From Bacteroidota bacterium (GTDB lineage: Bacteria > Bacteroidota > Bacteroidia > Bacteroidales > VadinHA17), in NCBI GenBank assembly GCA_029564935.1, contig JAKQPD010000197.1, positions 1-56,838 of the forward strand: a stretch of 56,838 bases of DNA, read 5' to 3'. The position numbers and the translations under genes are program-made. The notes beneath the pieces were generated by a model. That model was not told the origin of the DNA. It worked only from the letters and a program-made list of their open reading frames with translations, and made no database searches. Position 1 is the stretch's first letter. Every line of letters begins with the position of its first letter. Of the stretch, positions 11,400 through 38,133 are shown in pieces.

Positions 11400-12755
11400 T
11401 CAAATCTCTATTGCGGCTACACATTTATCGACTTCTTCCTGTGTCATTTCATGATCGGGAAGGTTATTGTCGAAGTATTTCTCATAAGCTGATATATCCA
11501 TGTGTCCATGTCCGCTCAGGTTAAACAGTATCGTTCGTGAAACACCTTCAATATCGGCTTTTCTGGCTTCATCGAGAGCAGCAGCTATTGCGTAGTTTGA
11601 TTCGGGAGCGGGTAGTATTCCTTCATTTTTTGCAAAGAATACTCCGGCTTCAAAACATTCCCTCTGCATTTTTGCCTTGGCTTCCACGAACCCGTCTTTA
11701 AGGAGCTGACTTACAAGAACACCTGCGCCATGATACCGCAATCCTCCGGCATGTATCTTTTCCGGTACGAAATTATGTCCAAGTGTGTACATTGGAAGAA
11801 GAGGTGTCATGCCTGCGGAATCTCCGAAATCGTACATGAATTTTCCCTTTGTAAGCTTGGGACAGGATGATGGTTCCACGGTTACGCACCTGGTTTTCCT
11901 TCCATTTACAATGTTTTCGCGGATGAAGGGGAATGAGATACCGGAGAAATTGGAACCGCCCCCGAAGCACCCTATTACAACATCGGGATAATCACCGGCT
12001 TTCTCCATCTGAAGTAAAGCTTCCTGTCCGATAATAGTCTGGTGGAGAGATACATGGTTTAGTACACTTCCAAGGGAATATTTTGTATACGGATCCTGAG
12101 CGGCTATTTCCATGGCTTCTGAAATTGCTATCCCAAGACTTCCCGGAGATTCAGGGTCCGATTCAAGAACTTTCCTTCCTGAGGCTGTCATGGTTGAAGG
12201 AGATGGTACAACTTTGGCGCCATAAGAGTTCATTAATATCCGGCGGCCGGGTTTCTGATGATAGCTGACTTTTACCATGAATACGAGCAGTTCCAGTCCG
12301 AAATGATGGCAGGCGAAGCTCATAGCGCTTCCCCATTGCCCGGCACCTGTCTCGGTAGTCATCCTTTTTATCCCTTCCTGCTTGTTGTAATATGCCTGGG
12401 CAATTGCTGTATTGGCTTTATGTGAACCGGAATAATTTCCTCCTTCATATTTATAATAGATCTTGCTTTTTGTACCGAGGGCTTTTTCAAGGTTTATTGC
12501 CCTGTACATTGGAGAAGGCCTGTAGATCTTATAAAGGTTTAAAACCTCTTCGGGAATATCTATATACCTTTCAGTCGCAACTTCCTGCCTGATAAGTTCC
12601 ATCGGAAATACTGCAGCCAGAGCTTCGGGGCCTATGGGTTCGCGGGTTACAGGATTCAGCGGGGGAAGAGGCTTATTGGGCATATCGGCAAAAATATTAT
12701 ACCATTGACGCGGCATCTCTTTTTCGCTTAACAGAATCTTTGTACTTTTTTTCAT
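11400..12755 (-). CDS. trpB: Tryptophan synthase beta-like protein, TrpB2 type
   Basis: The 451-residue product is longer than the roughly 400-residue TrpB1 and has the TrpB2 hallmarks: an N-terminal extension (WYNIFADMPNKPLPPLNP) and the RPSPMYRA segment. The PLP-binding Lys is in YSGSHKANTA, the TETGAGQWG motif follows, and the phosphate-binding loop is GGGSNFSG. The reaction is serine plus indole to tryptophan. No trpA or other trp gene is adjacent; TrpB2 often stands alone and is thought to use free indole or to act with a separate TrpA. A Trp-rich leader with attenuator (12797-12918) lies directly upstream, so expression is probably linked to tryptophan supply. The gene ends the 26.7 kb biosynthetic array. 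Confidence 0.92.
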   Translation of the reverse strand: MKKSTKILLSEKEMPRQWYNIFADMPNKPLPPLNPVTREPIGPEALAAVFPMELIRQEVATERYIDIPEEVLNLYKIYRPSPMYRAINLEKALGTKSKIYYKYEGGNYSGSHKANTAIAQAYYNKQEGIKRMTTETGAGQWGSAMSFACHHFGLELLVFMVKVSYHQKPGRRILMNSYGAKVVPSPSTMTASGRKVLESDPESPGSLGIAISEAMEIAAQDPYTKYSLGSVLNHVSLHQTIIGQEALLQMEKAGDYPDVVIGCFGGGSNFSGISFPFIRENIVNGRKTRCVTVEPSSCPKLTKGKFMYDFGDSAGMTPLLPMYTLGHNFVPEKIHAGGLRYHGAGVLVSQLLKDGFVEAKAKMQRECFEAGVFFAKNEGILPAPESNYAIAAALDEARKADIEGVSRTILFNLSGHGHMDISAYEKYFDNNLPDHEMTQEEVDKCVAAIEI

Positions 12756-12796
12756 AGTCGTAAATTTTATTTATGTTAATAATGGTTCCAAAACAA

Positions 12797-12824
12797 AAAG
12801 GCACGCTGTGATCAGCGTGCCTTT
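12797..12824 (-). terminator. Attenuator terminator upstream of trpB2
   Basis: On the minus strand AAAGGCACGCTG pairs with CAGCGTGCCTTT around a 4-nt loop, followed by TTTTTGTTTT. It lies 41 bp before the trpB2 start and 49 nt after the leader stop. An alternative pairing of GCTGTGAATCA (12867-12857) with TGATCACAGC (12814-12805), 10 bp with one bulge, would cross the loop and 3' arm and exclude the terminator. Confidence 0.85.
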
Positions 12825-12873
12825 GTCTATATATCTTATGAAATTATACAACAGCGTGATTCACAGCTTCATT

Positions 12874-12918
12874 TTATGAGCTGCGCCACCACCAGTTATA
12901 TAAGTTTCCTATTTTCAT
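12874..12918 (-). CDS. trp leader peptide (three consecutive Trp codons)
   Basis: ATG at 12918-12916 opens a 14-codon ORF, MKIGNLYNWWWRSS, ending in TAA at 12876-12874. TGG TGG TGG is at residues 9-11. It is followed by a putative antiterminator segment (12867-12857) and the terminator at 12797-12824. Within the leader, CAGCTCAT can also pair with ATGAAGCTG to give a 1:2 hairpin. This is the layout of ribosome-mediated attenuation: stalling at the Trp codons would leave segment 2 free to form the antiterminator, while a ribosome at the stop codon would cover part of it. The regulation is inferred; the ORF and pairings are seen. Confidence 0.88.
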   Translation of the reverse strand: MKIGNLYNWWWRSS

Positions 12919-12923
12919 CAATG

Positions 12924-12931
12924 CAAATCTA
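12924..12931 (-). promoter_or_regulatory. Candidate promoter -7 box for the trp leader
   Basis: TAGATTTG on the minus strand matches the Bacteroidota -7 consensus TAnnTTTG exactly. No clear -33 TTG is found at 17-19 bp spacing. The box ends only 5 bp before the leader ATG, so the transcript would begin at or next to the start codon; a different upstream promoter (TACTTTTT-like, about 12950-12975) is possible. Confidence 0.5.
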
Positions 12932-13044
12932 TATAAAATTTTGAATTGAAAGTAAAAAAAGTATAAGATTTTTATGGTTTATCTTGAAATCATATAAAAT
13001 ATCAGTCAGTTTGAAAAACAAATCGATATTATACTGCTCTCAGA

Positions 13045-14301
13045 TCATTCATAGACCATTGCTCCCAGATCGCGGAGATCTTTAAAGAATTCAGGATATG
13101 ATTTTGCAACGCAACCGGAATCCCTGATTATTACCCTGGAGGAAGAGGCAAGTGCGGCAACAGCTGCAGCCATTGCAATGCGGTGATCGCCATGGGAACA
13201 GACCTCTGCACCGGTTATTTTTCCGCCGGTGATAATCATATCGTCATCCTGGGTTTCGATCTTTACATTCATTTTGAGAAATTCATTTACCAGGGTTGCA
13301 GAGCGGTTGCTTTCCTTATGGATGAGCCGTGACACTCCTTTTATTGTCGATATTCCCCTGCAGTATGCAGCAAGTGCGACGAGAGGAGGGAAGAGGTCAG
13401 GCGATTCTGTCGCATCAAAATAGAAAGGTTTGAGCTCTGATTTTTTCACACTTACAGAATTTTCCATGATTGTTGTCCGTGCACCGGCCCTGTCGAGCAC
13501 GTCAAGAATTGCCTTATCGCTCTGGCGGCTGTCGGGACGCAAGCCTTTAACGGTTATTTCGCCATTGATGGCGCCTGCGACAAGCAGGAAGGCGCCGCCG
13601 CTCCAGTCGCCTTCGACTTCAAATTTCTGCGGTTGATAGATCTGGCTGCCGGGAATGCTGAAACGGCTGTAGTCAGTCTTGTTTATCCTTATTCCGAACC
13701 GTTCCAGTACCTGGAGGGTCATATCGATATAAGGTCTGCTTTTAAGATTTTCGACAATGACCTCGGAATCATTTACAGCAACAGGAAGCGCCATCAGCAA
13801 TCCGGTCAGGAGTTGCGAACTGAGAGAGCCGTCAATTCTGCATGATCCTCCTTTCAGAGGGCCCTTTATCCACAGAGGAAGGAGGCCATCACTGCTTTTA
13901 CATCCAACTCCAAGCTGCTTCAGGGCATCTTCTACCATCGACATAGGCCTTTTTGTAAGCGATCCGGTGCCTGTTATTACTATTTCAGAGTCATACAATG
14001 CCGCTACCGGGGAAAACATCCTTATTGCCAGTCCCGATTCACCGCAGTTGAGCTGATTTTCTTTTATTCCGCCCGATCCGGTTATCCTGAGCTGACCTGG
14101 TTCGGAAACAACTGTGGCCCCAAGTGCTGAGGCAATGCTTATGGCCGCAAGGGAATCATCGCATGCCGACGGGTTCAGGATTATGCTTTCACCTCCCGAG
14201 AGAAGTGAAGCGGCTATTGCCCTCTGGGTCATGCTTTTTGAGGGAGGCGCCTGTATTTCGCCCTTCAGATCCGACGGCATAATAATTCTATCCATCAGCA
14301 A
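13045..14301 (-). CDS. aroA: 3-phosphoshikimate 1-carboxyvinyltransferase (EPSP synthase)
   Basis: The 418-residue product matches the usual AroA length. The phosphate-binding start APPSKSMTQRAIAASLLSGG, the mid-region GSLSSQLLTGLLMALP and the C-terminal GDHRIAMAAAVAAL motif are all present. It joins shikimate-3-phosphate and phosphoenolpyruvate to EPSP, the penultimate step to chorismate. The start abuts the stop of the DAHP synthase gene upstream (14302), so the two are translationally coupled. It is the last gene of the pheA-led operon; the next downstream gene, trpB2, has its own leader. Confidence 0.95.
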   Translation of the reverse strand: MLMDRIIMPSDLKGEIQAPPSKSMTQRAIAASLLSGGESIILNPSACDDSLAAISIASALGATVVSEPGQLRITGSGGIKENQLNCGESGLAIRMFSPVAALYDSEIVITGTGSLTKRPMSMVEDALKQLGVGCKSSDGLLPLWIKGPLKGGSCRIDGSLSSQLLTGLLMALPVAVNDSEVIVENLKSRPYIDMTLQVLERFGIRINKTDYSRFSIPGSQIYQPQKFEVEGDWSGGAFLLVAGAINGEITVKGLRPDSRQSDKAILDVLDRAGARTTIMENSVSVKKSELKPFYFDATESPDLFPPLVALAAYCRGISTIKGVSRLIHKESNRSATLVNEFLKMNVKIETQDDDMIITGGKITGAEVCSHGDHRIAMAAAVAALASSSRVIIRDSGCVAKSYPEFFKDLRDLGAMVYE

Positions 14302-15417
14302 TTATATATTTTCAGGTTTTACATCAACTCCGTTGTTCATGATCCTCATCTGGTGGTTTATGGATTCCTGGTGAATAGCCTTGAAAATAGTATCGATTAT
14401 TTCTTCGCTCAATCCCTTCGACCTTCCTTTTATCATAACCCTTCTGACTATTTCATCCCATCTGGCACTCTGGAGGATAGTTATACTGTTAGCTTTCTTG
14501 TATTCCCCGATCTTTTCGGCAACCTGCATCCTTCTCTCTATCAGGTCGAGAAGATGATCGTCAAAGACGTCGATCTGCTGTCTGAGTTCACCCAGAACAT
14601 CAAGGAGTCTGGGATCGTCAGTTGAAGGATTACGAAGTATAAGCCGGCAGAGTAATTCATTCAGCTCGTCAGGGGTTACCTGTTGTGCCGCATCACTCAG
14701 GGCTTTGTCGGGATTAATATGTGACTCAAGCATTAATCCGTCGAAGTTCAGGTCGAGAGCTTTCTGGGAAATCTCATGGAGATATTCCCGGGCTCCGGCA
14801 ATATGGCTGGGATCGCAGAAGATCGGGAGGTTGGGGATCCTTCTTCGCAATTCGATAGGCAGCTGCCAGTTGGGCTGATTCCTGTAACTTGTTTTTTCAT
14901 AGGATGAAAAGCCCCTGTGAATTGCTCCGATCCTTTTAATGCCTGCCCGGGCCACTCTTTCAATTGCCCCTATCCAAAGTTCGATATCAGGATTGATAGG
15001 GTTTTTGACCAGCACCATCACATCCACACCGTTCAGTGCATCGGCTATCTCCTGCACTGTGAAAGGATTTACTGATGTACGCGCGCCGATCCAGAGCATA
15101 TCTATCCCGTATTTCAATGCTTCATAGACATGTTTCTCGTTTGCGACCTCAGTCCCTACAAGCAATCCTGTTTCCTGCTTTACGTTCCTGAGCCATTTAA
15201 GCGCCGGGATCCCGATCCCTTCAAATGAATTGGGCCGTGTACGGGGTTTCCAGATACCTGCCCTGAACAGGCTCACCTGGTTTATTTTTGCCAGCTGGCG
15301 GGCAGTCTCCATGACCTGCTCTTCCGTTTCTGCGCTGCAGGGTCCCGAAATAAGGAACGGCCTTCCCTTGTAGCCTTTCCAGTCTTTGATCTGTGTGGTT
15401 TCCAGTTTTAGTACCAT
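14302..15417 (-). CDS. Bifunctional 3-deoxy-7-phosphoheptulonate synthase / chorismate mutase
   Basis: The 371-residue product is a fusion. Residues about 15-260 are a KDO8P-synthase-like type I DAHP synthase (FLISGPCSAETEEQV, LFRAGIWKPRTRPNSFEG, LPIFCDPSHIAG). Residues about 275-355 are an AroQ-type chorismate mutase (LRQQIDVFDDHLLDLIERRMQVAEKIGEYKK). The first domain condenses erythrose-4-phosphate and PEP; the second turns chorismate into prephenate, used by PheA and TyrA of the same operon. In this fusion the mutase domain often mediates feedback control. A 191-bp repeat gap separates it from tyrA upstream. Confidence 0.93.
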   Translation of the reverse strand: MVLKLETTQIKDWKGYKGRPFLISGPCSAETEEQVMETARQLAKINQVSLFRAGIWKPRTRPNSFEGIGIPALKWLRNVKQETGLLVGTEVANEKHVYEALKYGIDMLWIGARTSVNPFTVQEIADALNGVDVMVLVKNPINPDIELWIGAIERVARAGIKRIGAIHRGFSSYEKTSYRNQPNWQLPIELRRRIPNLPIFCDPSHIAGAREYLHEISQKALDLNFDGLMLESHINPDKALSDAAQQVTPDELNELLCRLILRNPSTDDPRLLDVLGELRQQIDVFDDHLLDLIERRMQVAEKIGEYKKANSITILQSARWDEIVRRVMIKGRSKGLSEEIIDTIFKAIHQESINHQMRIMNNGVDVKPENI

Positions 15418-15429
15418 GGTTCTATTTTT

Positions 15430-15603
15430 AAGTGCCTAAAGTGCCTAAAGTGCCTAAAGTGCCTAAAGTGCCTAAAGTGCCTAAAGTGCCTAAAGTGCCT
15501 AAAGTGCCTAAAGTGCCTAAAGTATTTGGAGTAATTAGAGTATTTAGAGTTGGTTCTTTAAACTTTAAGTACTTTAAGTACTTTAAATACTTTAAATACT
15601 CAC
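15430..15603. repeat. 9-bp minisatellite with inverted second half, inside the aromatic operon
   Basis: Ten exact tandem copies of GTGCCTAAA occupy 15432-15521. Three diverged units follow (GTATTTGGA, GTAATTAGA, GTATTTAGA; 15522-15548). The right part is in opposite orientation: ACTTTAAGT twice and ACTTTAAAT twice (15562-15597). The two halves can pair into a long imperfect hairpin in the tyrA-DAHPS intergenic mRNA. The in-frame VPK-repeat reading is taken as an artefact of the 9-bp period. Confidence 0.9.
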
Positions 15604-15608
15604 AACCT

Positions 15609-16454
15609 CTACTGTAATATCTTCTGTATCGCGTTTGCTTCTTCCATTAGTGTTTTGAGGCCTTCTTTATCTTTATCCGCTATCATTTTTCTGAAGCGGT
15701 TCATTTTTTCAATATAAACATCTATGACTTCAAGGATGTATTCTGCATTTTCTGTAAATATCGGCGCCCATGTCTCACTGTTGCTTTTTGCCAGGCGGAC
15801 AGTACTTTCGAAACCGCCTCCGGCAAGGTTAAGGATATTTTCTTCTTCATGTTCCTTTTCAAGGACGCTCAGGGCAAGTGAAAATGAAGTGATATGAGAA
15901 ATATGTGACACATATGCGACGTGAACATCATGCACGCTCGAATTCATGTATGTAAGTCGCATATTCAGAACTTTCAGCATATTTTCAACCGATCCCAGGG
16001 CATCGGGATCGCTTAGTTCGGCATCGCAGATGATAGCGATCTTGTAATCGAACAGTTTACTTATGGCAGCAAGGGGACCTGAATACTCTGTACCGGACAT
16101 TGGATGAGCTGCGACATATCTTCCTCGTGCCGGATGATCTTTCGAGATATCTGCTATCCCTGCTTTGGTCGATCCCATATCGGTAACAATCTTCTGTGTT
16201 CCTGTGATCCGGTCGAGTATTCCCGGAAGCATTCTACAGTTAGCGTCAACAGGAGCACAAAGGATTATTATATCGCTTTTGTCCACCGCATTTTCAAGTG
16301 TGTCGGCTTCATCTATCAAGCCGCACAGGAGGGCAATGTTCCTGTGCTGGGGATTATTATCGACCCCGATGATCCTGTCGGCAAATTTCCGCTTCCGCAG
16401 ATCCAGAACGAGCGATCCGCCGATAAGGCCTATTCCTACTACTGCTATTGTCAT
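15609..16454 (-). CDS. tyrA: Prephenate dehydrogenase
   Basis: The 281-residue product begins with a dinucleotide-binding motif (IAVVGIGLIGGSLVLDL), followed by GVDNN for NAD(P) selection. The prephenate dehydrogenase His/Ser segment is visible as AAHPMSGTEYSG, with HVAYVSHISHITSF later. It oxidises and decarboxylates prephenate to 4-hydroxyphenylpyruvate on the way to tyrosine. There is no fused chorismate mutase, consistent with the mutase being fused to DAHP synthase downstream. It is the third gene of the pheA-led operon. Confidence 0.93.
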   Translation of the reverse strand: MTIAVVGIGLIGGSLVLDLRKRKFADRIIGVDNNPQHRNIALLCGLIDEADTLENAVDKSDIIILCAPVDANCRMLPGILDRITGTQKIVTDMGSTKAGIADISKDHPARGRYVAAHPMSGTEYSGPLAAISKLFDYKIAIICDAELSDPDALGSVENMLKVLNMRLTYMNSSVHDVHVAYVSHISHITSFSLALSVLEKEHEEENILNLAGGGFESTVRLAKSNSETWAPIFTENAEYILEVIDVYIEKMNRFRKMIADKDKEGLKTLMEEANAIQKILQ

Positions 16455-16509
16455 GGTTTATGTTTCCTTGAGGGGCCGTCTCAGTATTTTTTCTTAGCAG
16501 CCTCTGTTA

Positions 16510-17700
16510 TTAAATTATGTTTTCTTTATCAAGATATTTTACAATCCTTCTCCTGGTTTCACTGAGCGTTTTTTCATCGGCGCAGAGTGAGATCCGGATG
16601 TAACGGTCGCCATTACTGCCGAAGATAAATCCCGGTGTTATGAATACATGAGCATTATTAAGTATATCATCAACAAACAGTTCGCAGCTGGCTATGGAGT
16701 CAGGGATCCTTCCCCAGACAAACAATCCGCTCTGGTCCTTGTCGAAACTGCAGTTCAGGATATTCATTATCTCTTCAACGATGATTCTTCTTTTTGTATA
16801 TACACTGTTAACAGTATCATACCACGACGGAGGATTCCCCAGGGCCTCAACAGCAGCAGTCTGGAGTGCACGGAACATCCCGGAGTCCATGTTACTTTTT
16901 ACCTTGAGGATATTGCTTATGTATTCGCTGTGACCCGCGACCATTCCTATCCTCCAGCCTGCCATATTATGAGATTTGCTCAGAGAGTTGAGCTCGAGTG
17001 CCGTCTCTTTTGCCCCGTCGACAGAAAGCAGGCTGAGATAATCCCTGTTAAGTATGAAGCTGTAAGGGTTATCATTGCAAAGAAGGAATCCATGGCCGGA
17101 AGCAAATGCTACGAGCTTTTCAAAGAGGCTGACAGATCCTTTTGCCCCCGTGGGCATATGCGGGTAATTTATCCACATGATCTTTACCCTGCTCAGATCT
17201 TCCCGGTCAAGCTGCTCCAGGTCGGGCTGCCAGCCATTTTTCTCAGTAAGGTCATAATATCTGATTTTTCCTCCTGTCAGACTGGTTACTGAAGAGTATG
17301 TCGGGTAACCAGGATTTGGGACCAGCACTTCATCGCCCGGATTCACGTAAGCCATGCTGATATGCATTATTCCTTCCTTGCTTCCCATCAGAGGCAGTAT
17401 CTCCGATCCGGGATCAAGTGTCACATTGAAATACTTCTTATACCATTCTGCAAAAGCCTTTCTGAGGGCCGGGATACCAGTATAACTCTGGTATCCGTGT
17501 GATGAAGGTTTCATCGCTTCTTCCTTCAGACGGGAAATTGTGTTTTCCGACGGAGGCTGGTCAGGACTTCCGATTCCAAGATTAATAATATCGGTCCCGG
17601 CGCTCCGCATCTGATCTATCTGCCTGAGCTTCTGAGAAAAATAATATTCCTTAACGCTTTCGGTGCGTTCAGCAGGTTTAACTTTCATAGAGTTTGTCAT
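16510..17700 (-). CDS. Class I/II PLP-dependent aminotransferase, likely aromatic/aspartate type
   Basis: The product is 396 residues from ATG 17700. Fold-type I motifs are present: INLGIGSPDQPP, NPGYPTY, the MWINYPHMPTG region (usually NYPNNPTG) and the PLP Lys in SLSKSHNMAGWRIG. Between pheA and tyrA it most likely transaminates phenylpyruvate/4-hydroxyphenylpyruvate or prephenate. DAP aminotransferases look similar, so the substrate is inferred from context. A longer reading frame reaches 17748 but would overlap pheA by over 70 bp; ATG 17700 or 17688 is preferred. Either way the start overlaps or abuts the end of pheA (17678), giving translational coupling. Confidence 0.85.
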   Translation of the reverse strand: MTNSMKVKPAERTESVKEYYFSQKLRQIDQMRSAGTDIINLGIGSPDQPPSENTISRLKEEAMKPSSHGYQSYTGIPALRKAFAEWYKKYFNVTLDPGSEILPLMGSKEGIMHISMAYVNPGDEVLVPNPGYPTYSSVTSLTGGKIRYYDLTEKNGWQPDLEQLDREDLSRVKIMWINYPHMPTGAKGSVSLFEKLVAFASGHGFLLCNDNPYSFILNRDYLSLLSVDGAKETALELNSLSKSHNMAGWRIGMVAGHSEYISNILKVKSNMDSGMFRALQTAAVEALGNPPSWYDTVNSVYTKRRIIVEEIMNILNCSFDKDQSGLFVWGRIPDSIASCELFVDDILNNAHVFITPGFIFGSNGDRYIRISLCADEKTLSETRRRIVKYLDKENII

Positions 17701-18508
17701 CTTTAGCGTAAATACCAAGTACCTCAAGCTCGAGTGCATAATTCTCAAGGATATCCCTTACCAGTTCGAAGTCGTGATCCGGATTGAGTTCAAGGTCGGC
17801 GTAGAACATATACTCCCAGTCGCCGTTAAGTCGAGGAACAGACTGGATCTTGGACAGGTTGACATCCATTTCTGCAAGTCTTACAAGAACTGTGGCAAGT
17901 GATCCGGGTTTATGGCCGGTACAGAAACTTACCGAGGTTTTATTCCCGTCATTTGAAGCGTGTTTTTCCTCTCCGATCATGAGGAAGCGGGTGTAGTTCT
18001 TTTTATATGTTTCGATTCCCGGAGCGATTATTTCGAGTCCGTACATTTCGGCAGATATTGCGGATGATATTGCAGCCACACCTTTCAGCCGGTTTTCACT
18101 GATGTATCTTGCGCTTCCTGCTGTGTCCTCGGTTTCAATAAGGGTTATTCCCCTGAGGCGGTTGAGGTAGGTCATACACTGATTAATAGCAATCGGATGT
18201 GATCTTATCTCCCTTATTGCTTCTACCGGCTGACCCGGAAGCGCCATCAGGTTCTGTTTAATCCTGAGGTTATGTTCGCCCAGTATCTTCATTCCAGATT
18301 CCCGTATAAGGGTATAATTTGAAAGGATGCTGCCTGATCTTGCATTTTCTATCGCCATCATTGCAAAATCCGCCCGGTTATCCTTAACGGCCATAAGTGT
18401 CAGATCAAATGTGGAACAGGGAACTATATCTATTGAATCATCCTTGAAATACTGCCTTGCGGCTACCTCGTGAAAAGATCCTTGTTCTCCCTGTATTGAA
18501 ATCTTCAT
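17678..18508 (-). CDS. pheA: Prephenate dehydratase
   Basis: The 276-residue product has a periplasmic-binding-like catalytic domain (residues 1 to about 180, starting ISIQGEQGSFHEVAA, with the TRF motif in NYTRFLMIGEE) and a C-terminal ACT domain (GSLATVLVRLAEMDVNLSKIQSVP) that binds phenylalanine for feedback inhibition. It decarboxylates and dehydrates prephenate to phenylpyruvate. The N-terminal chorismate mutase domain of enterobacterial PheA is absent; that activity is on the DAHP synthase fusion downstream. It is the first gene of the aromatic operon and follows a Phe/Tyr-rich leader peptide and attenuator. Confidence 0.95.
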   Translation of the reverse strand: MKISIQGEQGSFHEVAARQYFKDDSIDIVPCSTFDLTLMAVKDNRADFAMMAIENARSGSILSNYTLIRESGMKILGEHNLRIKQNLMALPGQPVEAIREIRSHPIAINQCMTYLNRLRGITLIETEDTAGSARYISENRLKGVAAISSAISAEMYGLEIIAPGIETYKKNYTRFLMIGEEKHASNDGNKTSVSFCTGHKPGSLATVLVRLAEMDVNLSKIQSVPRLNGDWEYMFYADLELNPDHDFELVRDILENYALELEVLGIYAKDDKLYES

Positions 18509-18522
18509 AATTATAATGTATT

Positions 18523-18553
18523 AAAAAAAAGAGTCCCCGCTTCCGGGGACTCT
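18523..18553 (-). terminator. Attenuator terminator upstream of pheA
   Basis: On the minus strand AGAGTCCCCG pairs with CGGGGACTCT around a GAAG loop (18553-18530), followed by eight Us. It ends 14 bp before the pheA start codon. Segment GGGGAUUUU (18586-18578), directly after the leader stop codon, can pair with AGAGUCCCC (18553-18545) over 9 positions including two G-U pairs. That pairing occupies the 5' arm of the terminator. Confidence 0.9.
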
Positions 18554-18586
18554 GCAATATCTTCATATGTATACACAAAAATCCCC

Positions 18587-18652
18587 TTATTCTTTCTTAA
18601 AATAAAAAAAGAAATAAAAATAAGAGGTGCTATAACTTTGTGTAAGGTTCAT
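18587..18652 (-). CDS. Phe/Tyr leader peptide of the pheA operon
   Basis: ATG at 18652-18650 opens a 21-codon ORF ending TAA at 18589-18587. Its second half reads SYFYFFFYFKKE, with five Phe and three Tyr in eight consecutive codons (YFYFFFYF) and another Tyr earlier. The operon downstream makes phenylalanine and tyrosine. The stop codon touches the segment able to form an antiterminator. An exact promoter match (TTG-N18-TACATTTG, 18701-18673) lies 20 bp upstream. A longer in-frame ATG at 18832 exists but would start upstream of that promoter. Role in attenuation is inferred. Confidence 0.9.
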   Translation of the reverse strand: MNLTQSYSTSYFYFFFYFKKE

Positions 18653-18672
18653 TTTATCGCTCTGTAGAGGTA

Positions 18673-18701
18673 CAAATGTAATGCAATTTTTAAAAAAACA
18701 A
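18673..18701 (-). promoter_or_regulatory. Promoter of the pheA leader/operon
   Basis: On the minus strand TTG (18701-18699), 18 bp, then TACATTTG (18680-18673) matches the Bacteroidota sigma-ABfr consensus TTG/TAnnTTTG. Transcription would start about 18668, giving a leader-peptide 5'-UTR of roughly 16 nt. Confidence 0.75.
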
Positions 18702-18784
18702 GAAAAAAGGTAAGAAAAGTTTAAAATATTAACAGAAATGCCCGACAGCTGAGAAAAGTTAAGGGTTAAGGGTTCCAGGTTCCA

Positions 18785-18873
18785 CACCTTCGCTGAAGCT
18801 TCGGTGGGCGAAGCAGGTTTCAGGTTCCCCACCTTCGCTGAAGCTTCGGTGGGCCGAAGCAGGTTTCAGGTTC
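18785..18873. repeat. Tandem 43/44-bp repeat with internal hairpin after hisIE
   Basis: Two nearly identical copies (18785-18827 and 18830-18873, differing by one inserted C) begin CACCTTCGCTGAAGCTTCGG and end AGGTTTCAGGTTC. Each contains CACC/GGTG and GAAGCTTC self-complementary parts. They lie 8 bp beyond the 3' end of hisIE. No T-run follows, so a terminator is not claimed. Confidence 0.8.
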
Positions 18874-18880
18874 AAGGTAG

Positions 18881-19474: not shown

Positions 19475-19619
19475 TATCACATATAAATTTAAACTTCTTA
19501 ATCTCTGTGTAACTCTACTGTAACTAAAAGAAATTAAGAACTTACACAACTTGTCCCGATTTTATCGGGAGATTTACACAGAGGATACACAGAGGTCCAC
19601 AGAGAATGCAAAGAGAAAA

Positions 19620-25906: not shown

Positions 25907-25940
25907 TTATTTTTTCGTTTTGTCCGGGCAACAGGCGTTG

Positions 25941-25975
25941 AAATTAAAAACCCGCCTGGTATGCTCAGACGGGTT
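25941..25975 (-). terminator. Terminator hairpin between leuB and hisG
   Basis: On the minus strand AACCCGTCTG (25975-25966) pairs with CAGGCGGGTT (25958-25949) with one G-U pair and a 7-nt loop, followed by TTTTTAATTT. It starts 5 nt after the leuB stop. Some read-through into hisG is possible, since no clear separate promoter is seen in the gap. Confidence 0.8.
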
Positions 25976-25979
25976 AATA

Positions 25980-27041: not shown

Positions 27042-27074
27042 TAAAGTTTATATAAATAGTTTTTTAAAATTCTA

Positions 27075-27246
27075 TTTAACCGCAAAGAGCGCAAAGGTTT
27101 ACGCAAAGAGCGCAAAGCTTATACAAAGAGCACAAAGGTTTACAAAAAGAGCACAAAGGTTTACACAAAGAACACAAAGGTTATACAAAGGGCACAAAGG
27201 TTTACACAAAGAACGCAAAGGTTATACAAAGAGCGCAAAGGTTATT
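27075..27246. repeat. Array of about eight 20-21 nt CAAAG-rich units between leuB and the CimA-like gene
   Basis: Starts with TTTAACCGCAAAG, like the inverted-repeat family elsewhere, then runs as tandem units of the form TTTACACAAAGAGCGCAAAGG with base changes. All are in one orientation, with no closing CTTTGCGGTTAAA arm. Units abut with no spacers, so it is not a CRISPR array. It reaches the stop codon of the CimA-like gene. Confidence 0.85.
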
Positions 27247-28795
27247 ATGTTTCAGGGGTTAACGTTTTATGTTCTGCACTGTTAAGACCTTCAATGAGGT
27301 TCAGCATTTTCTCGGTGGCTTTAATTGCCGATTCGGTCTGGTCGGCATCAAGGCCCTTTGTATTGAACTCCTTGTTATGATATTTCCATGAAATAATAGT
27401 TTCAACAAGAGCATCTGTCTTTCCTCCCGGAGGGATTGATACCTGGTAGTCAGTAAGAGTGGGCAACTCTTTTCCGATACTTTCATAAATAATTCTCACA
27501 GCCTTCATGAAAGCATCATACTGGCCGTCGCCGGAGCTGGTTCCTTCATGTATCTGACCGTCAATCTCTATCTTTACACTTGCAAAGGGTCTCAGTCCAT
27601 AACTCAGTGACAACGCATAATTATTTATGAATATCTTATAGGTGATCTGTTCATTTCCAAGGACATCGGCAATAATGAACGGAAGATCTTCAGTAGTAAC
27701 AGTCTCTTTTTTATCTCCCAGTTCAATAACCCTCATTGTTACTTTTTCAAGGGACTCGGGGCTCAGCGATAATCCATATTCTTCGAGGTTCTTTTTAATT
27801 GTTGCTTTTCCGGATTGTTTACCGAGGGCATATTTACGTTTTCTCCCGAAACGTTCGGGTAAGAGGTTGTTGTAGTAAAGATTATCCTTGCTGTCGCCAT
27901 CGGCATGAACACCCGAGGTCTGGGTAAAAACGTTTTCACCTACAACCGGTTTATTGACCGGGATCCTTATACCGCTGAACGTCTCTACAAGACGGCTTGC
28001 TTTGGTGATCTCAAATTCGTTTATTGCAGTTTCTGCTTTAAGCTGATCATGCAATACACCTATCACACTTGAAAGAGGTGCATTTCCTGCCCTCTCACCC
28101 AGTCCGTTAACTGTTGTATGGACACCCCTTATACCTGCTTTTACGGCCGAAAAAATGTTCGCAACAGCGAGATCATAATCATTATGCGGATGGAAATCGA
28201 AGTGGATCGACGGATACCTGTCAACAACTTTTTTGCAGAATAAAAAGGTCTGCTCAGGATTCAATATTCCCAGGGTATCGGGAAGCATGATCCTTTTAAC
28301 GGGCTCGTCCTTAAATGAATCGATCATGAAGAAAACATAGTCTTCCGAGTGGATCATCCCGTTGGACCAATCCTCGAGATAAATATTCACATCCATACCG
28401 GAATCCCCCGCTTTATTGATTATTTCTTTAATGTCCCTGGCATGGGTTTCAGGGTCTTTTCTTAATTGTTTTTCGAGATGACGGAGCGATCCCTTGCAAA
28501 GCAGATTGATTACTTTTCCCCCTGCATCCCTAATCCAGTTCAGGGAAATATCCCCGTCGATAAATCCGAGAACCTCCACTTTATTGTGGAAGTCATTTTC
28601 AATTGCCCAGCCGGTTATTTTTTTCAGTGCCTCAAATTCGCCTTTTGAAACCCGTGCCGAAGCAACCTCTATACGGTCGACTTTCAGCTCCTTTAGCAAG
28701 AGCCGTGCGATATGCAGTTTTTCGACCGGTGAATATGACACACCCTGGGTTTGTTCACCATCCCTCAGGGTTGTATCCATTATTTCAATTCTCAT
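27245..28795 (-). CDS. Second 2-isopropylmalate synthase-family protein, possible (R)-citramalate synthase
   Basis: The 516-residue product has the HMGL-like TIM barrel with [24 protein letters not shown] and [13 protein letters not shown], and a C-terminal LeuA-type regulatory domain (about 395-500). It is clearly diverged from the LeuA at 31005 ([20 protein letters not shown] versus [20 protein letters not shown]). Citramalate synthases use pyruvate instead of ketoisovalerate and feed isoleucine synthesis; LeuC, LeuD and LeuB then process the product. Substrate choice cannot be decided here. It overlaps leuD by 4 bp. Confidence 0.8.
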
Positions 28796-29391: not shown

Positions 29392-29412
29392 TTTAATCCT
29401 TTTTCGGAATTA

Positions 29413-30819: not shown

Positions 30820-30869
30820 TAATAAATGATTTATATTTATGTAACTAATTTAGCCTTATCCTTTTATCC

Positions 30870-31004
30870 ACCAACCCCCCTGATCAGCTATTTTACCCCC
30901 CCCAACCCCACTGAAGGTTTTTTTATCCTTTTTACCCCCCAACCCCCCTAAAGGGGGGCAGAGATCGGGATGGGATTTTACCCCCCCCTCAGGGGGCAGG
31001 GGGG
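30870..31004. repeat. C-run/G-run hairpin element, copy 1 (leuA-leuC gap)
   Basis: Alternating runs of 5-8 C and 5-6 G (such as CCCCCCTAAAGGGGGG) form stacked hairpins. About 75 bp (30933-31004) matches 33652-33725 closely, sharing ACCCCCCTAAAGGGGGGCA, AGATCGG, GGGATTTT and CCCCTCAGGGGG. CCCCCTGATCA is also shared on the left side. It sits directly next to the leuA stop codon. Confidence 0.85.
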
Positions 31005-32498: not shown

Positions 32499-32518
32499 AT
32501 TTCAAGTGGTTTTATTGT

Positions 32519-33568: not shown

Positions 33569-33626
33569 GGTTTTAATATTAGTTAATTATTTTATTCAGT
33601 TAAAATCTTTTCTTTTCCTATTTTAC

Positions 33627-33725
33627 TCCCCACCCCCCTGATCAATCCTTTTACCCCCCCACCCCCCTAAAGGGGGGCATAGATCGGAGGGGGATTTTTA
33701 CCCCCCCTCAGGGGGGAAGGGGGGT
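33627..33725. repeat. C-run/G-run hairpin element, copy 2 (ilvN-ilvC gap)
   Basis: A homologue of 30870-31004, with the same order of C-runs and G-runs and the same short connectors (CCCCCTGATCA, TAAA, CATAGATCGG, GATTTTTA, CTCAGGGGGG). It lies just after the 3' end of ilvN on the minus strand. Two copies inside one operon suggest spread of a small repeat element. Confidence 0.85.
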
Positions 33726-33744
33726 ATATTATCCCTGGAGAAAT

Positions 33745-34290
33745 CTATATTTCAGATATATCCCTGTTCGCTTCATCCAGCTCTTTCAGGTAGGCGTTGA
33801 GTTCCTTGACCTGTTTTGTAATAGCCACTCTTCCCGACCTGGCAAACTGAAGCACTCCATAGGGTTCAAGATGAACAAGGAGCTCGTTGATCTCCGGTTT
33901 ATGCCCGGTCTTCTCAATGACCATATATTCCGGTGATACAACAAGGATCCTTGCATTGTAGTTCTTTACGATCGTTTCAAGGATATTACCCGACAATATA
34001 CTGTTTGTCGATACTTTAAACAGTGCGATCTCCTGGTAAATTATCTGGTCGGATGAATGTGCGAACACTTTAAGAACATCAACCAGCTTTTCGATCTGAC
34101 GGGCTATCTTCCTGACCATGTCGGGAGTGGCTTTTACCACAAGGGTAAGGAGGTGAACGCCTTTTACTGCAGATTCGGAGGCAGTAATGCTTTCAATATT
34201 TATCTGCCTCCTGGTCAGAATTATAGTTATCTGATTGAGAATACCAATGTGGTTCTCGCTGAAGATTGATAATGTAAATTCCTGTTTCAT
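33745..34290 (-). CDS. ilvN: Acetolactate synthase, regulatory (small) subunit
   Basis: The 181-residue product has an N-terminal ACT domain (FTLSIFSENHIGILNQITIILTRRQINIESI) that binds branched-chain amino acids, and a C-terminal regulatory domain (ARILVVSPEYMVIEKTG). It sits 8 bp after ilvB and partners with it. Confidence 0.94.
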   Translation of the reverse strand: MKQEFTLSIFSENHIGILNQITIILTRRQINIESITASESAVKGVHLLTLVVKATPDMVRKIARQIEKLVDVLKVFAHSSDQIIYQEIALFKVSTNSILSGNILETIVKNYNARILVVSPEYMVIEKTGHKPEINELLVHLEPYGVLQFARSGRVAITKQVKELNAYLKELDEANRDISEI

Positions 34291-34298
34291 AATAAATT

Positions 34299-36044
34299 TT
34301 AACCTTTGTAGTTAAGTGTCACTTCCGAAACTGAGGCTCCCGGTTCTATCATCGGCAGCACATTTCCTTCCTTTTCGATTTCTATATCAAGAAGATATGG
34401 TCCTTCTGCAGCCAGCATTTCAGATAAAGCATCTTTGAGATCATTTCTTTCGGAAACTTTCTTTCCGGGGATGCCGTATCCTCCGGCGATGGTAATAAAA
34501 TCGGGATTTACCAGTTCAGTCGAAGCATATCTTCTTTTAAAGAACATTTCCTGCCATTGTCTTACCATTCCGAGATAACCATTGTTCAGTAAGATTATCT
34601 TAAGGGGTACCTTATAATGAAGTATTGTGCCCAGTTCCTGGATGGTCATCTGGAAACCTCCATCTCCAATAAACGCGATCACCTGTTTTCCGGGTTGTCC
34701 TATTTTGGCACCAACTCCTGCCGGAAGGCCGAAACCCATTGTACCCATGCCACCTGATGTGACAAGGGTGTTGGGCTGTGTGAATTTGTAGTATCTGGCT
34801 ACAGTCATCTGGTTCTGACCAACATCAGTAACTATTATTGCATCATCACCGGTCATTTCGGAAACAAGCTTTACAACTTCACCCATTCTTATTTTTCCTG
34901 ATTCAGGTTTCGTTTCCTCTTTAATAACACGATCATATTCAATCTTATCGCATATCCTGAATTCTCTTATCCAGCTTTCGTAACTGTTCTGTTTTACGAG
35001 AGGTATGAGATTCTGTAATGCTTCTTTTGCATCGCTGTGGATCTCGAGGTCGACCTGGACATTCTTGTTAATTTCGGCCTGATCAATTTCCAGATGGATA
35101 ATCCGTGCCTTTTTAGCATATTTTTTAAGATTACTTGTAACGCGGTCGTCGAAGCGCATTCCGATTGCAATCAGGAGGTCAGCTTCGTTCGTCAGAAGGT
35201 TTGGGGCATAATTACCATGCATCCCGAGATAACCTGCATAAAGACGGTGGCCACAGGGGAATGCTGATAGTCCGAGCAGTGTCAGTGCCACCGGTATACC
35301 GGTTTTTTCAGCAAACTGAAGAAGTTCATTTTCTGCTTTGGCCAGAAGTACTCCGTGTCCGGCAAGGATCATCGGTTTTTCAGCATGGTTTATCATTATT
35401 GCAGCCGACTCGATCGCTTTTATGTTCAGGGGAACATGCGGATTGTAACTCCTTAAGTAATTGCATTTTTTGTATTTGAACTGAAGCTTTTCCTGTTGTG
35501 CATCCTTGGTAATGTCAATTAGGACAGGTCCCGGCCGGCCAGTTGTGGCGATATAAAATGCTTTTGCCAACACTTCAGGTATATCCTGAGGTTTCTTGAT
35601 CTGCCAGTTCCATTTTGTGACAGGCATAGATACTCCCAGAATATCGGTCTCCTGGAAAGCATCAGTTCCGATAAGCCCTGATACCACCTGTGCGGTGATG
35701 AATATCATGGGAATTGAATCGAGGTATGCATTTGCTATACCCGTGATGAGATTTGTAGCTCCCGGTCCCGAAGTTGCAAAGCAGATCCCCGGTTTGCCTG
35801 TCACCATGGCGTAAGCCTGTGCAGCATGTGCTGCTCCCTGTTCATGCCTTGTAAGGATATGTCTTAGCTTGTCATTATAATCAAGGAGCCTGTCATAAAC
35901 AGGCATAATAGCTCCCCCCGGGTAGCCGAAGATCGTATCAACTCCTTCCTCCATAAGGCATCTGAGAATAGCTTCCGCTCCTGTTATCTGTTCAAAACCG
36001 TTAACCTTTGAAGTGGTTTCCTGTGCTTCCTTGTCAGTCATCAT
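34299..36044 (-). CDS. ilvB: Acetolactate synthase, catalytic (large) subunit
   Basis: The 581-residue thiamine-diphosphate enzyme has FGYPGGAIMPVYDRL, the catalytic Glu in HEQGAAHAAQAYA, SGPGATNLITG and the ThDP/Mg motif GDGGFQMTIQELGTILHYK followed by ILLNN. It forms acetolactate or acetohydroxybutyrate. Gap to ilvD (74 bp) has short CACTACTCA-type direct repeats only. Confidence 0.96.
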   Translation of the reverse strand: MMTDKEAQETTSKVNGFEQITGAEAILRCLMEEGVDTIFGYPGGAIMPVYDRLLDYNDKLRHILTRHEQGAAHAAQAYAMVTGKPGICFATSGPGATNLITGIANAYLDSIPMIFITAQVVSGLIGTDAFQETDILGVSMPVTKWNWQIKKPQDIPEVLAKAFYIATTGRPGPVLIDITKDAQQEKLQFKYKKCNYLRSYNPHVPLNIKAIESAAIMINHAEKPMILAGHGVLLAKAENELLQFAEKTGIPVALTLLGLSAFPCGHRLYAGYLGMHGNYAPNLLTNEADLLIAIGMRFDDRVTSNLKKYAKKARIIHLEIDQAEINKNVQVDLEIHSDAKEALQNLIPLVKQNSYESWIREFRICDKIEYDRVIKEETKPESGKIRMGEVVKLVSEMTGDDAIIVTDVGQNQMTVARYYKFTQPNTLVTSGGMGTMGFGLPAGVGAKIGQPGKQVIAFIGDGGFQMTIQELGTILHYKVPLKIILLNNGYLGMVRQWQEMFFKRRYASTELVNPDFITIAGGYGIPGKKVSERNDLKDALSEMLAAEGPYLLDIEIEKEGNVLPMIEPGASVSEVTLNYKG

Positions 36045-36118
36045 CGTTTTAACCTTTTATCTAATGCTTCTAATTTTAATCTCTCACTACTCACAACTCA
36101 CAACTCACTACTCACTAC

Positions 36119-37945
36119 TCATACAATCCTTACTGCCCCTTTATCCGCCGAGCTTACGGTTGCAGCATAAGCACGAAGGGAAGCGGGTATCTTACGATCC
36201 CTTCCCCGGGGAGTGAACGCTTGTTCCCCTTTCGTTTCAGCTTCCGCAAACCTTTTTCCCAGTTCTTTTTCTGTAAGTTTAACGTTAATGCTTCTCTCCG
36301 GGATATTTATTATAATGGTATCTCCTGTTTTTATAACAGCAATAGCTCCGCCTGCTGCAGCCTCGGGCGAAACATGTCCGACCGAGAGACCCGATGTTCC
36401 TCCTGAGAACCTTCCGTCGGTAAGCAATGCACATTTCTTTCCGAGTCCTTTCGACTTAAGGAATGATGTGGGGTAGAGCATTTCCTGCATACCCGGACCA
36501 CCTTTCGGACCTTCATATCTGATCACAACGACGTTACCTTCCTTCACCTTTCCTCCGAGTATACCGTCGACGGCTTCTTCCTGGGATTCAAATACAATTG
36601 CAGGACCCTCAAAAGTAAGGAGGTCCTTATCAACCCCGGCAGTTTTTACAATACATCCGTCTTCTGCAATATTCCCGTAAAGAACGGCAAGTCCGCCGTC
36701 GCTGCTGTATGCATGCCTGACATCCCTGATGCAGCCTTTCTCACGATCAGTGTCGGACGAGTTGTACATTGTGCTGTGTGATCCCATTTCCAGGCTCTTA
36801 GTCATTGAAGGTGCGCTTCTGAAAAATGAGAAGGCCTCAGGTAAGGCCTTAGCCCCCATGATATCCCAGTCAGCCAGGGCATCCCTGAGTGAAGGATAAT
36901 CGATACGATTTACAGTCGTGTCAATTAAATTATTCCTGTCAAGTTCCCCCAGGATGGCCATAATCCCTCCCGCACGATTAACATCCTGAACGTGAAAATG
37001 GGAGCTTGGAGCTACTTTACAGATATTCGGGATCCTTCGTGAAAGGGAATCAATATCTTTCATTGTGAAATCGACTCCGGCTTCCCGTGCAAGTGCCAGC
37101 AGATGTAAAACAGTATTTGTTGAACCGCCCATTGCTATATCGAGTGCCATTGAATTCATGAAAGCTGCTTTTGATGCAATTGAGCGGGGGAGAACTGTAT
37201 TGTCGCCATCCTTATAATATCTGTTCGCGAGTGTAACGATCAGATCGGCAGCTTTTTTCAAAAGATTAAGCCTGTTTGTATGAGTTGCGAGGATGGTCCC
37301 ATTACCAGGAAGAGCCAGTCCAAGAGCTTCATTGAGACAATTCATTGAATTTGCGGTGAACATTCCCGAACATGATCCGCAGGTCGGACATGCGGATCTT
37401 TCTATCTCCATCAGTTCATCGTCGCTGATCTTATCATCGGCGCTGTCGATCATTACATCAATCAGGTCGATATATCTCTTACCATGCAGACCGGCTTCCA
37501 TTGGTCCGCCCGAGACAAATACCGCCGGAATATTCAGTCTGAGTGCAGCCATCATCATTCCCGGTGTTATCTTGTCGCAATTGCTTATACAGATCATTGC
37601 ATCGACACAGTGTGCGTTGCAAACATATTCGACACTGTCGGCAATAAGTTCGCGGGAGGGAAGGGAGTAGAGCATTCCGGTGTGACCCATTGCAATACCG
37701 TCATCGATTGCAATTGTATTGAATTCGGCAGCAAAACATCCGTGTTTTTCTATTTCTTTCTTTATTATCTGTCCTGTTTCATGAAGATGAACATGACCCG
37801 GAACGAATTGTGAAAAAGAATTTACAACAGCAATTACAGGTTTGCCGAAATGTTCTTCTTTCATACCGTTGGCGCGCCACAGGCTTCTGGCTCCGGCCAT
37901 TGTTCTGCCGGTGAATGTTACCGAACTTCTGAGTTTGTTTTTCAT
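36119..37945 (-). CDS. ilvD: Dihydroxy-acid dehydratase
   Basis: The 608-residue product has the Fe-S ligands and active-site motifs [35 protein letters not shown] and [20 protein letters not shown]. It makes the 2-keto acids of isoleucine and valine. It is the first gene of the ilv-leu operon and follows a BCAA-rich leader peptide and a terminator that ends about 20 bp before its start. Confidence 0.96.
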
Positions 37946-37956
37946 TATAAAAAGTT

Positions 37957-37991
37957 ATAAAAAAAGCTTTCCGGTCTGATCCGGAAAGCTT
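37957..37991 (-). terminator. Attenuator terminator upstream of ilvD
   Basis: On the minus strand AAGCTTTCCGG (37991-37981) pairs with CCGGAAAGCTT (37974-37964) around a 6-nt loop, followed by a run of Us. The segment TGATCCGGGAA (38028-38018), which begins with the leader stop codon itself, pairs with TTTCCGGATCA (loop plus 5' arm) over 11 consecutive positions with one G-U. It therefore forms a strong competing antiterminator. Confidence 0.92.
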
Positions 37992-38025
37992 CTGTATATT
38001 TATATAAATACATATTATTCCCGGA

Positions 38026-38082
38026 TCACGTGCTGGGCACGAGAATAAGGACGAGGATAATATGGATTAAAGAAATTCTCAC
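38026..38082 (-). CDS. Ile/Leu/Val leader peptide of the ilv-leu operon (GTG start)
   Basis: GTG at 38082-38080 opens an 18-codon ORF, MRISLIHIILVLILVPST, ending TGA at 38028-38026. It has five Ile, four Leu and two Val codons, concentrated in IIHIILVLILV-like runs. An in-frame TAA lies 12 bp upstream and no ATG is available, so GTG is the likely start. The stop codon is the first base of the antiterminator segment. This matches ilv-type leaders in enterobacteria in composition and position, though not in sequence. Attenuation is inferred. Confidence 0.88.
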   Translation of the reverse strand: MRISLIHIILVLILVPST

Positions 38083-38104
38083 GGTTTTGTTTTAATAAGC
38101 CTGA

Positions 38105-38133
38105 CAAAAGTACTATTTATTTTAAAAAATCAA
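38105..38133 (-). promoter_or_regulatory. Promoter of the ilv leader/operon
   Basis: On the minus strand TTG (38133-38131), 18 bp, then TACTTTTG (38112-38105) matches TTG/TAnnTTTG exactly. The spacing is identical to the pheA-leader promoter. Transcription would start near 38099, about 17 nt before the leader GTG. Confidence 0.75.

Follow-up and report, generated by a model that had tools for sequence, protein, structure and literature searches.

In transcription attenuation of the textbook geometry, the antiterminator takes the 5′ arm of the terminator; in the Trp_leader of Escherichia coli, it is formed by segment 2 of the leader RNA together with that arm. Here, we analyzed the attenuators of a biosynthetic gene array on the reverse strand of contig JAKQPD010000197.1 (GenBank assembly GCA_029564935.1), from a Bacteroidota bacterium of the order Bacteroidales. 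The whole stretch of 56,838 nucleotides (nt) is referred to as the window. A first-pass annotation of this DNA had proposed amino-acid-specific attenuators at three of its four module starts, for isoleucine, leucine, and valine (ILV), for phenylalanine and tyrosine (Phe/Tyr), and for tryptophan (Trp). Comparison with relatives supports this reading through the conservation of the leaders, the terminators, and covarying alternative pairings. In addition, the Trp antiterminator seems to use a mirrored order, A-B-B′-A′, instead of A-B-A′-B′.

Leader-peptide attenuation in Bacteroidota is itself already published, which partly answers the reservation in the first-pass annotation that it might be poorly documented in this phylum. 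The Bacteroid-trp RNA (RF01692), known since 2010 (Weinberg et al. 2010, PMC2864571), resembles the window in phylum, Trp-codon leader, leader-codon stem, and terminator, and has been mentioned upstream of the trp genes of Flavobacterium psychrophilum (PMC6414381). In its members, segment 2 is typically GTCGTGA, overlapping the stop codon TGA, and is complementary to a terminator loop and 3′ arm reading TCACGAC. The Rfam model stops in the 5′ arm of the terminator, so that this pairing falls outside it; a catalogued family is thereby suggested to have an interaction beyond its own model. Unlike these members, the window scores 38.4 bits, below the cut-off of 49. Matches above that cut-off occurred in 11 of 148 genomes of a phylum-wide sample, all from one family, and in the control genome Bacteroides ihuae; 2 of the 11 (L164 and L165), those covered by a TrpE protein search, lie upstream of trpE. 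For F. psychrophilum, transcriptome mapping has given "strong clues" for leader-peptide attenuators at amino acid operons, in a passage that sets out no pairing logic (PMC9723704). Leader-like small open reading frames (ORFs) are described in Bacteroides thetaiotaomicron (PMC7366714), while a 2010 survey treats leader-peptide systems in Proteobacteria, Actinobacteria, and Firmicutes, with "Bacteroid-" nowhere in its text (PMC2965389).

Beyond these, E. coli trpL (RF00513) shares with the window a 14-residue stall-codon leader, a leader-codon hairpin, and a terminator, and the window exceeds the cut-off of this family (12793-12897, 43.3 bits versus 41; the Bacteroid-trp match overlaps it). The Phe_leader family (RF01859) likewise has a Phe-rich leader before pheA, a terminator, and classical logic. 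The window differs from it in its score (36.4 bits, cut-off 55), in its mixed Phe and Tyr codons, and in an operon that also contains tyrA and shared shikimate genes. The Rfam search recommended in the first-pass annotation was thus successful for Trp_leader and fell short of the cut-offs for Bacteroid-trp and Phe_leader, and annotation by gathering scores would pick up just the Trp element among the three attenuators of the window. In the titles, abstract openings, and passages that the literature searches covered, we found no loop-capturing antiterminator described in a leader-peptide attenuator, nor any detailed account of Bacteroidota attenuators for his, phe, or ilv. As far as these searches go, the array of four attenuators in the relatives, the conservation of this array, and the mirrored antiterminator at Trp are new.

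Each of the three intergenic regions in the window combines a short ORF containing codons for the product of the module, a −7 promoter box of the form TAnnTTTG, and a T-tract terminator (38082-37963 for ILV, 18652-18530 for Phe/Tyr, and 12918-12797 for Trp, all on the reverse strand). Upstream of ilvD, the box TACTTTTG (38105-38112) lies 22 nt before the start of the ILV leader VRISLIHIILVLILVPST (38026-38082), which was found by ORF scan and comparison with relatives, and which starts with GTG where most relatives have ATG. The putative antiterminator strand TGATCCGGGAA (38018-38028) begins at the leader stop codon, and its predicted partner is the 5′ arm of the terminator at 37963-37992 (−18.2 kcal/mol). 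Upstream of pheA, the box TACATTTG (18673-18680) is followed by the Phe/Tyr leader MNLTQSYSTSYFYFFFYFKKE (18587-18652), found by ORF scan and as the sub-threshold Phe_leader match; the strand AGGGGATTTTTGTG (18574-18587), again at the stop codon, is predicted to pair with the 5′ arm of the terminator at 18530-18553 (−19.6 kcal/mol). Upstream of trpB2, the box TAGATTTG (12924-12931) lies 5 nt before the ATG of the Trp leader MKIGNLYNWWWRSS (12874-12918). Segment 2, GCTGTGAATCA (12857-12867), starts 6 nt after the leader stop and is either hidden in a leader-codon stem or complementary to TGATCACAGC, the loop and start of the 3′ arm of the terminator at 12797-12824. The leaders rich in the product of their module and the U-tract terminators between leader and first gene are therefore where the earlier annotation had put them. 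Its placement of each antiterminator strand within 7 nt of the stop codon also held. For the Trp strand of the window, pairing with the 5′ arm of the terminator did not exceed shuffles (p = 0.87).

The repetition of this design had been taken as an argument against chance, and both shuffling and recurrence bear this out. When each upstream region was shuffled 300 times with its dinucleotides preserved, the score of the window ORF was never matched (0/300 each for W, FY, and ILV), and among loci with a called terminator, the ORF scan reached p ≤ 0.05 in 19/21 for Trp, 36/40 for Phe/Tyr, 22/30 for ILV, and 15/15 for His. Counting the window, a Trp leader was found upstream of trpB2 in 21/21 loci, and an ILV leader upstream of ilvD in 29/30, taken as the best 30 of 52 places, the exception being L106. 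A Phe/Tyr leader was present in 37 of the 47 Bacteroidota pheA loci (L002-L048) that the scan covered, 33 non-Bacteroidota loci (L049-L081) lying outside it. The ten pheA loci without a leader were L019-L022, L024, L034, L030 (truncated), L038, L040, and L048. The scan dropped genes below 40% identity, including the trpB2 of L032, and spurious ORF picks at L019, L021, L022, L024, L034, and L040 (pheA) and at L106 (ilvD) were not counted as leaders. The distance from the end of the promoter box to the leader start was 17-22 nt in 25/30 ILV, 21/38 Phe/Tyr, and 13/15 His rows; the Phe/Tyr leaders lacking a box at that distance were for the most part from distant loci. All four leaders occur together on each of three contigs (L008 with L083, L004 with L084, and L010 with L090, each pair being taken as one contig on the basis of equal length).

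Five of the leaderless pheA loci (L019-L022 and L024) belong to a rearranged cluster, in which pheA stands behind a leuB-like gene (36-37% identity to leuB of the window); L034 resembles this arrangement. In L022 and L024, pheA is followed by a leader-bearing his operon and then by trpB2 with its Trp leader, and in L019-L021, trpB2 lies directly 3′ of pheA.

At the Phe/Tyr and ILV loci, and at the His loci of relatives, the attenuators look classical, as judged from their sequences: a stop-proximal strand pairs with the 5′ arm of the terminator. In most close Phe/Tyr and ILV loci, this strand begins at the stop codon, and at the His loci mostly within the last codons of the leader. When the segment around the leader stop was compared with 200 shuffles per locus, its duplex with the 5′ arm reached p ≤ 0.05 in 31/37 Phe/Tyr, 21/29 ILV, and 14/14 His loci (L014, L034, L040, and L106 were left out of this test for all genes, so that L014 is absent from its Trp, Phe/Tyr, and His sets). 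The own 5′ arm outperformed the mean foreign one in 35/37, 25/29, and 8/14 loci, respectively, the low count for His reflecting how little these elements vary. Two unrelated families of ILV terminators (AAGCTTTCCGG-like and CCGTTCTCAC-like) were each paired with a fitting antiterminator. With a 9-nt target slid across the terminator, all three types gave their signal at offsets of −2 to −8 relative to the loop centre. In minimum-energy folds of the window from which the footprint of a stalled ribosome was removed, the antiterminator persisted until position +3 (Phe/Tyr) or +7 (ILV), and a ribosome at the stop codon gave the terminator in both.

The fourth module start, that of his, had been described as having no leader, which is correct for the window, where the his genes sit behind a bare terminator. 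This terminator, AACCCGTCTGAGCATACCAGGCGGGTT (25975-25949), is retained in the gap between leuB and hisG and starts 4 nt past the leuB stop codon; at this locus in the window, we found no his promoter box, leader, or antiterminator. All 15 relatives whose hisG passed the 40% identity filter have a His-rich leader (e.g., MYLNSSHHHHYHTCSQARR) preceding a terminator of the type AACCCGTCTGAG...CAGGCGGGTT. The element in the window is either a decapitated attenuator or an assembly error in the form of a deletion. In a class-wide sample, hisG was matched in 68 of 149 genomes, and among the best 30 of 70 places, minus the window, 25 of the 29 loci had a leader rich in His, by the criterion of 3 or more His within 6 residues. 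A terminator was called in 23 of these, one of them very weak (−4.0 kcal/mol). In 22 distant His attenuators, the sliding target gave its highest count 5′ of the loop centre (18/22 at −4) and a lesser one at the centre itself (15/22); L253 and L262, having no terminator, and L257, with a weak one, were left out.

For Trp, the classical 5′-arm antiterminator was tested first and proved unsupported in near relatives. Pairing of the Trp strand with the 5′ arm was no better than in shuffles in the window, nor at p ≤ 0.05 in any of 20 loci; a 5′-arm antiterminator of RF00513 type thus gained no support from this test or from covariation. In truncated Trp alignments, RNAalifold found no conserved 2:3 helix past 3 weak pairs. 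Instead, the conserved segment GCTGTGA is complementary to TCACAGC, a stretch that covers the loop of the terminator and enters its 3′ arm. This pairing reached p ≤ 0.05 in 19/21 Trp loci, against 6/38 Phe/Tyr, 0/29 ILV, and 0/15 His controls (L014, whose Trp terminator was mis-called, is present in this test as well as in the swap and 2:4 covariation tests). E. coli trpL, as a single control, behaved in the opposite manner to the window, with −10.9 kcal/mol and p 0.09 for its 5′ arm, against p 1.0 for its loop and 3′ arm.

Exchanging partners between loci pointed in the same direction. The set comprised 59 Trp attenuators, namely those of near-relative trpB2, the Bacteroid-trp loci L159-L169 (all above the RF01692 cut-off), other leaders of the family, and class-wide trpE; seven distant trpB2 leaders, L136, and L149 are omitted from it. 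The own loop and 3′ arm were the better partner in 55 of the 59, which 0/2000 permutations equalled, while the own 5′ arm was better in 24 (permutation p 0.23). For near-relative trpB2 alone, the own loop and 3′ arm won in 16/20 (p 0.002). Sliding the 9-nt target across 61 Trp attenuators, now with L136 and L149 and without the distant trpB2 leaders, placed the signal at 0 to +4 (54/61 at 0, then 49/61 and 50/61). Different clades carry different versions of the helix: GCTGTGA with TCACAGC in the family of the window, GTCGTGA with TCACGAC in Bacteroid-trp, GCTGTAAA with TTTACAGC in L112 and L173, and GCTGTGTA with TACACAGC in L116. Among 20 rows of near relatives, one 2:4 pair was A-U in 8, U-A in 8, and broken in 4. 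The conservation and covariation looked for in relatives were therefore found, the leaders and alternative helices recurring and the Trp covariation falling on the loop and 3′ arm.

Predicted folds gave a comparable picture. In the window, minimum-energy folds with a stalled ribosome kept the Trp antiterminator until the polymerase was 5 nt past the stem, and ribosome-free folds formed the terminator at +3. Across all loci, with the polymerase taken to hide 10 nt and the stalled ribosome to cover 15 nt counted from the first Trp codon, stalled folds of near relatives at +3 had loop/3′-arm pairs in 17/21 and the terminator in 4/21, and ribosome-free folds had the terminator in 16/21. Stalled folds of the RF01692 loci had loop/3′-arm pairs at +3 in 11/11.

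The Trp codons themselves pair with sequence 3′ of segment 2, forming the leader-codon stem. In this stem and the terminator combined, 8 of 28 pairs were changed on both sides, a number that 0/500 shuffles reached; in the stem alone (columns 7-19 with 53-64), 3 of 11 pairs were so changed. At the second position of the codon flanked by the two outer Trp codons, base and partner covary (G-C 8, C-G 6, unpaired 5, gap 1), and the residue encoded by this codon (W, S, C, or R) may therefore be fixed by RNA structure. The Trp leader is also probably leaderless, as judged from promoter spacing. The box lies 5 nt before the ATG in 19/21 loci and 4 nt before it in 2/21 (13 of the 5-nt spacings come from the leader scan, and the other 6, where the scan chose another start codon, were read from the sequence). 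With the box at −12 to −5, as in F. psychrophilum (PMC9723704), the 5-nt spacing puts the A of the ATG at +2, and the 4-nt spacing at +1. Transcripts of such a type are uncommon in the phylum: leaderless mRNAs make up 5.5% in F. psychrophilum (PMC9723704), and about 3.7% of mRNAs in B. thetaiotaomicron have a 5′ untranslated region (UTR) shorter than 10 nt (PMC7366714). A precedent exists in Sinorhizobium meliloti, where the first codon of a Trp leader of 14 residues, ATG, forms the start of the trpL transcript (PMC7298713); this species belongs to another phylum, and its 5′ end is reported, whereas that of the window is deduced. The Bacteroid-trp loci L161, L162, and L168, with a start codon 4-5 nt past a TAnnTTTG box, are leaderless in appearance as well.

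Taking these comparisons together, we consider it likely that each module start acts as a ribosome-mediated transcription attenuator, mirrored at Trp and of the textbook form elsewhere. Sequence comparison establishes the leaders, promoter boxes, terminators, and both alternative helices with their covariation; from these, we infer that the helices control read-through, and in which direction. Polymerase would initiate at the TAnnTTTG promoter, and a ribosome would translate the leader. With the amino acid in good supply, the ribosome at the stop codon would mask segment 2, or would leave and let segment 2 refold into the leader-codon stem; with segment 2 hidden, the terminator would form and the operon would be off. 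When the amino acid is scarce, the ribosome would stall on its codons, leaving segment 2 free to form the antiterminator, and the operon would be read. Segment 2 would capture the 5′ arm of the terminator in ILV, Phe/Tyr, and the His elements of relatives. At Trp, the conserved, covarying part of the antiterminator would capture the loop and 3′ arm, so that the hairpin would be blocked where its folding nucleates, with weaker 5′-arm pairs added within the mirrored helix in predicted folds. The two opposite geometries within one array would thus offer a natural set in which to compare a block of loop nucleation with hiding of the 5′ arm.

The match between segment 2 and the loop could also be real but serve another role, either as a pseudoknot on the intact terminator that times pausing, or by making the terminated leader RNA stable or able to act in trans. 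From the geometry, the loop could pair while the lower terminator stem persists, and in Sinorhizobium, terminated trpL RNA is known to act in trans (PMC7298713). However, the pairing reaches into the 3′ arm, where it competes with the upper stem, and it is this same segment 2 that the leader-codon stem hides, which is the layout of an antiterminator. We regard this second role as unlikely.

Several observations weigh against a mirrored antiterminator. In near relatives, the 2:4 helix has double-sided changes at one pair alone; its covariation score was reached by 14/500 shuffles, and its counts of changed pairs and pair types by 500/500, because most positions are invariant. The RF01692 members by themselves vary little (own loop better in 6/11, p 0.049). 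By +9, even stalled folds contained the terminator, in 17/21 loci of near relatives and in 11/11 of RF01692; in ribosome-free RF01692 folds, it was present at +3 in 4/11 and at +5 in 10/11. Because the mirrored helix is less stable than the finished Trp terminator, the switch would have to be kinetic, by trapping. A further point concerns ILV, where folds of the window without any ribosome keep the antiterminator until +5; silencing there seems to need a terminating ribosome, and hence translation.

A further alternative is that the Trp attenuator works as in E. coli trpL, by sequestering the 5′ arm, with the loop/3′-arm match as a by-product. The RF00513 match above its cut-off fits this, as does the leader, which has the 14-residue length of E. 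coli TrpL and its W-W-R-x-S ending. Moreover, stalled folds hold at least 4 upstream 5′-arm pairs in 20/21 loci at +1 and +3, and in 11/11 RF01692 loci at +3. These pairs neither exceed shuffles nor covary; the predicted antiterminator would then be a long hairpin, of which the loop/3′-arm helix is the conserved part. More distant loci are divided. The 19 class-wide trpE leaders were mixed, the significant partner being the 5′ arm in 5 and the loop and 3′ arm in 6, and both partners passed the swap test (p 0.008 and 0.0035, respectively). Among 8 trpB2 leaders from the phylum sample (seven distant ones and the window's own locus, L175, p 0.053), 4 were significant for the 5′ arm and 0 for the loop and 3′ arm, and the swap test for the seven distant leaders favoured the 5′ arm (p 0.0025 vs. 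0.55). Of these, L191, L196, and L199 have a common terminator motif, GCCGTG...CACGGC, and favour a classical 5′-arm antiterminator. Against trpL-like action in the family of the window stand the failure of 5′-arm pairing to exceed shuffles in all 20 near-relative loci, the lack of 5′-arm covariation in the 59 Trp attenuators and, with the sliding target, at offsets −4 to −12, and the restriction of RF00513 matches above cut-off to the window (1/59 in the family sample, 1/247 in the phylum sample). We therefore judge it quite improbable. The idea that RF00513 is a Proteobacteria-type element found throughout the phylum was rejected on the same count of 1/247; there are many sub-threshold matches in the phylum without Trp codons.

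From these sequences, two Trp designs appear to coexist in the phylum, and mirrored pairing is not universal. It is nonetheless our favoured view, held with some reserve, that many Bacteroidota Trp attenuators, Bacteroid-trp included, capture the loop and 3′ arm, while Phe/Tyr and ILV in this array, like the His elements of relatives, follow the textbook, and that the family of the window adds a leaderless transcript. The 22 Trp leaders detected with family models form a biased sample in this respect (2 for the 5′ arm vs. 15 for the loop and 3′ arm). Nor is Trp attenuation of trpB2 universal, since 19 of 29 trpB2 upstream regions from other genomes of the phylum (the best-scoring 30 of 71 places, minus the window) had no WW leader; for trpE, this was so in 8/30 loci. 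Duplicates (L205, L215, L216, and L117) and the spurious L188 had been removed from this wider sample.

Regulation by a riboswitch, a T-box, or an RNA-binding protein, with the leader ORFs being incidental, is highly improbable: we found nothing in its favour, the one gathering-score Rfam match of the window is Trp_leader, and the leader amino acid fits the downstream pathway. That the ORFs and hairpins are chance or unrelated features has a negligible probability: the upstream regions are AT-rich, U-rich DNA gives F, L, and I codons (shuffled maxima average about 3 per 10 residues for FY and about 5 for ILV), and terminators may just end the upstream operon, but comparative data already contradict this, as the leaders recur within the family and beyond, each with the amino acid that fits its pathway, the promoter boxes are regularly spaced, and the alternative helices covary.

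The array is part of a 4.18 Mb genome assembly of 441 contigs, and the closest named relatives of its PheA are uncultured Bacteroidota, mostly labelled Bacteroidales. Its first module reads ilvD-ilvB-ilvN-ilvC-leuA-leuC-leuD-cimA-like-leuB, starting with ilvD (36119-37945; NF009103, 1040.8 bits). Downstream of leuB, hisG, hisD, hisB, hisF, and hisIE were identified by protein-family match, as were the genes of the other modules except ilvN; three further genes of the his run were assigned from position alone. The his genes are followed by pheA-aminotransferase-tyrA-DAHP synthase/chorismate mutase-aroA, with pheA (prephenate dehydratase; 17678-18508) in first place (best family 193.4 bits, cut-off 219), and then by trpB2, which encodes a TrpB-like PLP enzyme (11400-12755; NF009057, 706.7 bits). 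All of these genes lie on the reverse strand.

Contig C365 of the same genome carries trpE behind a Trp leader, MKKIYTNWCWWLSRFHLMM, and a terminator (G000:C365:2771-2908, locus L170), a second Trp attenuator that matches Bacteroid-trp at 43.8 bits (cut-off 49). A TrpB exceeding the TIGR00263 cut-off is encoded 4.5 kb beyond TrpE, which makes the trpB2 of the window a second TrpB under a separate Trp attenuator. An additional function has been supposed for TrpB2 (PMC1854888). A Trp-specific attenuator at a stand-alone trpB2, beside an attenuated trpE operon and TrpB1, is evidence that trpB2 serves Trp supply here.

Within the ilv-leu operon, the best match of the protein encoded at 27245-28795 is the citramalate synthase family (693 bits vs. 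a cut-off of 950), which suggests that isoleucine is made via citramalate. Judged by eye, the intergenic regions at 15418-15608, 27042-27244, 30820-31004, and 33569-33744 contain apparent short tandem repeats (TTTAGGCAC, CTTTGTGTAAAC-like, and a G-run). An inverted repeat lies 3′ of trpB2 (11340-11388) and also draws chance matches to microRNA families.

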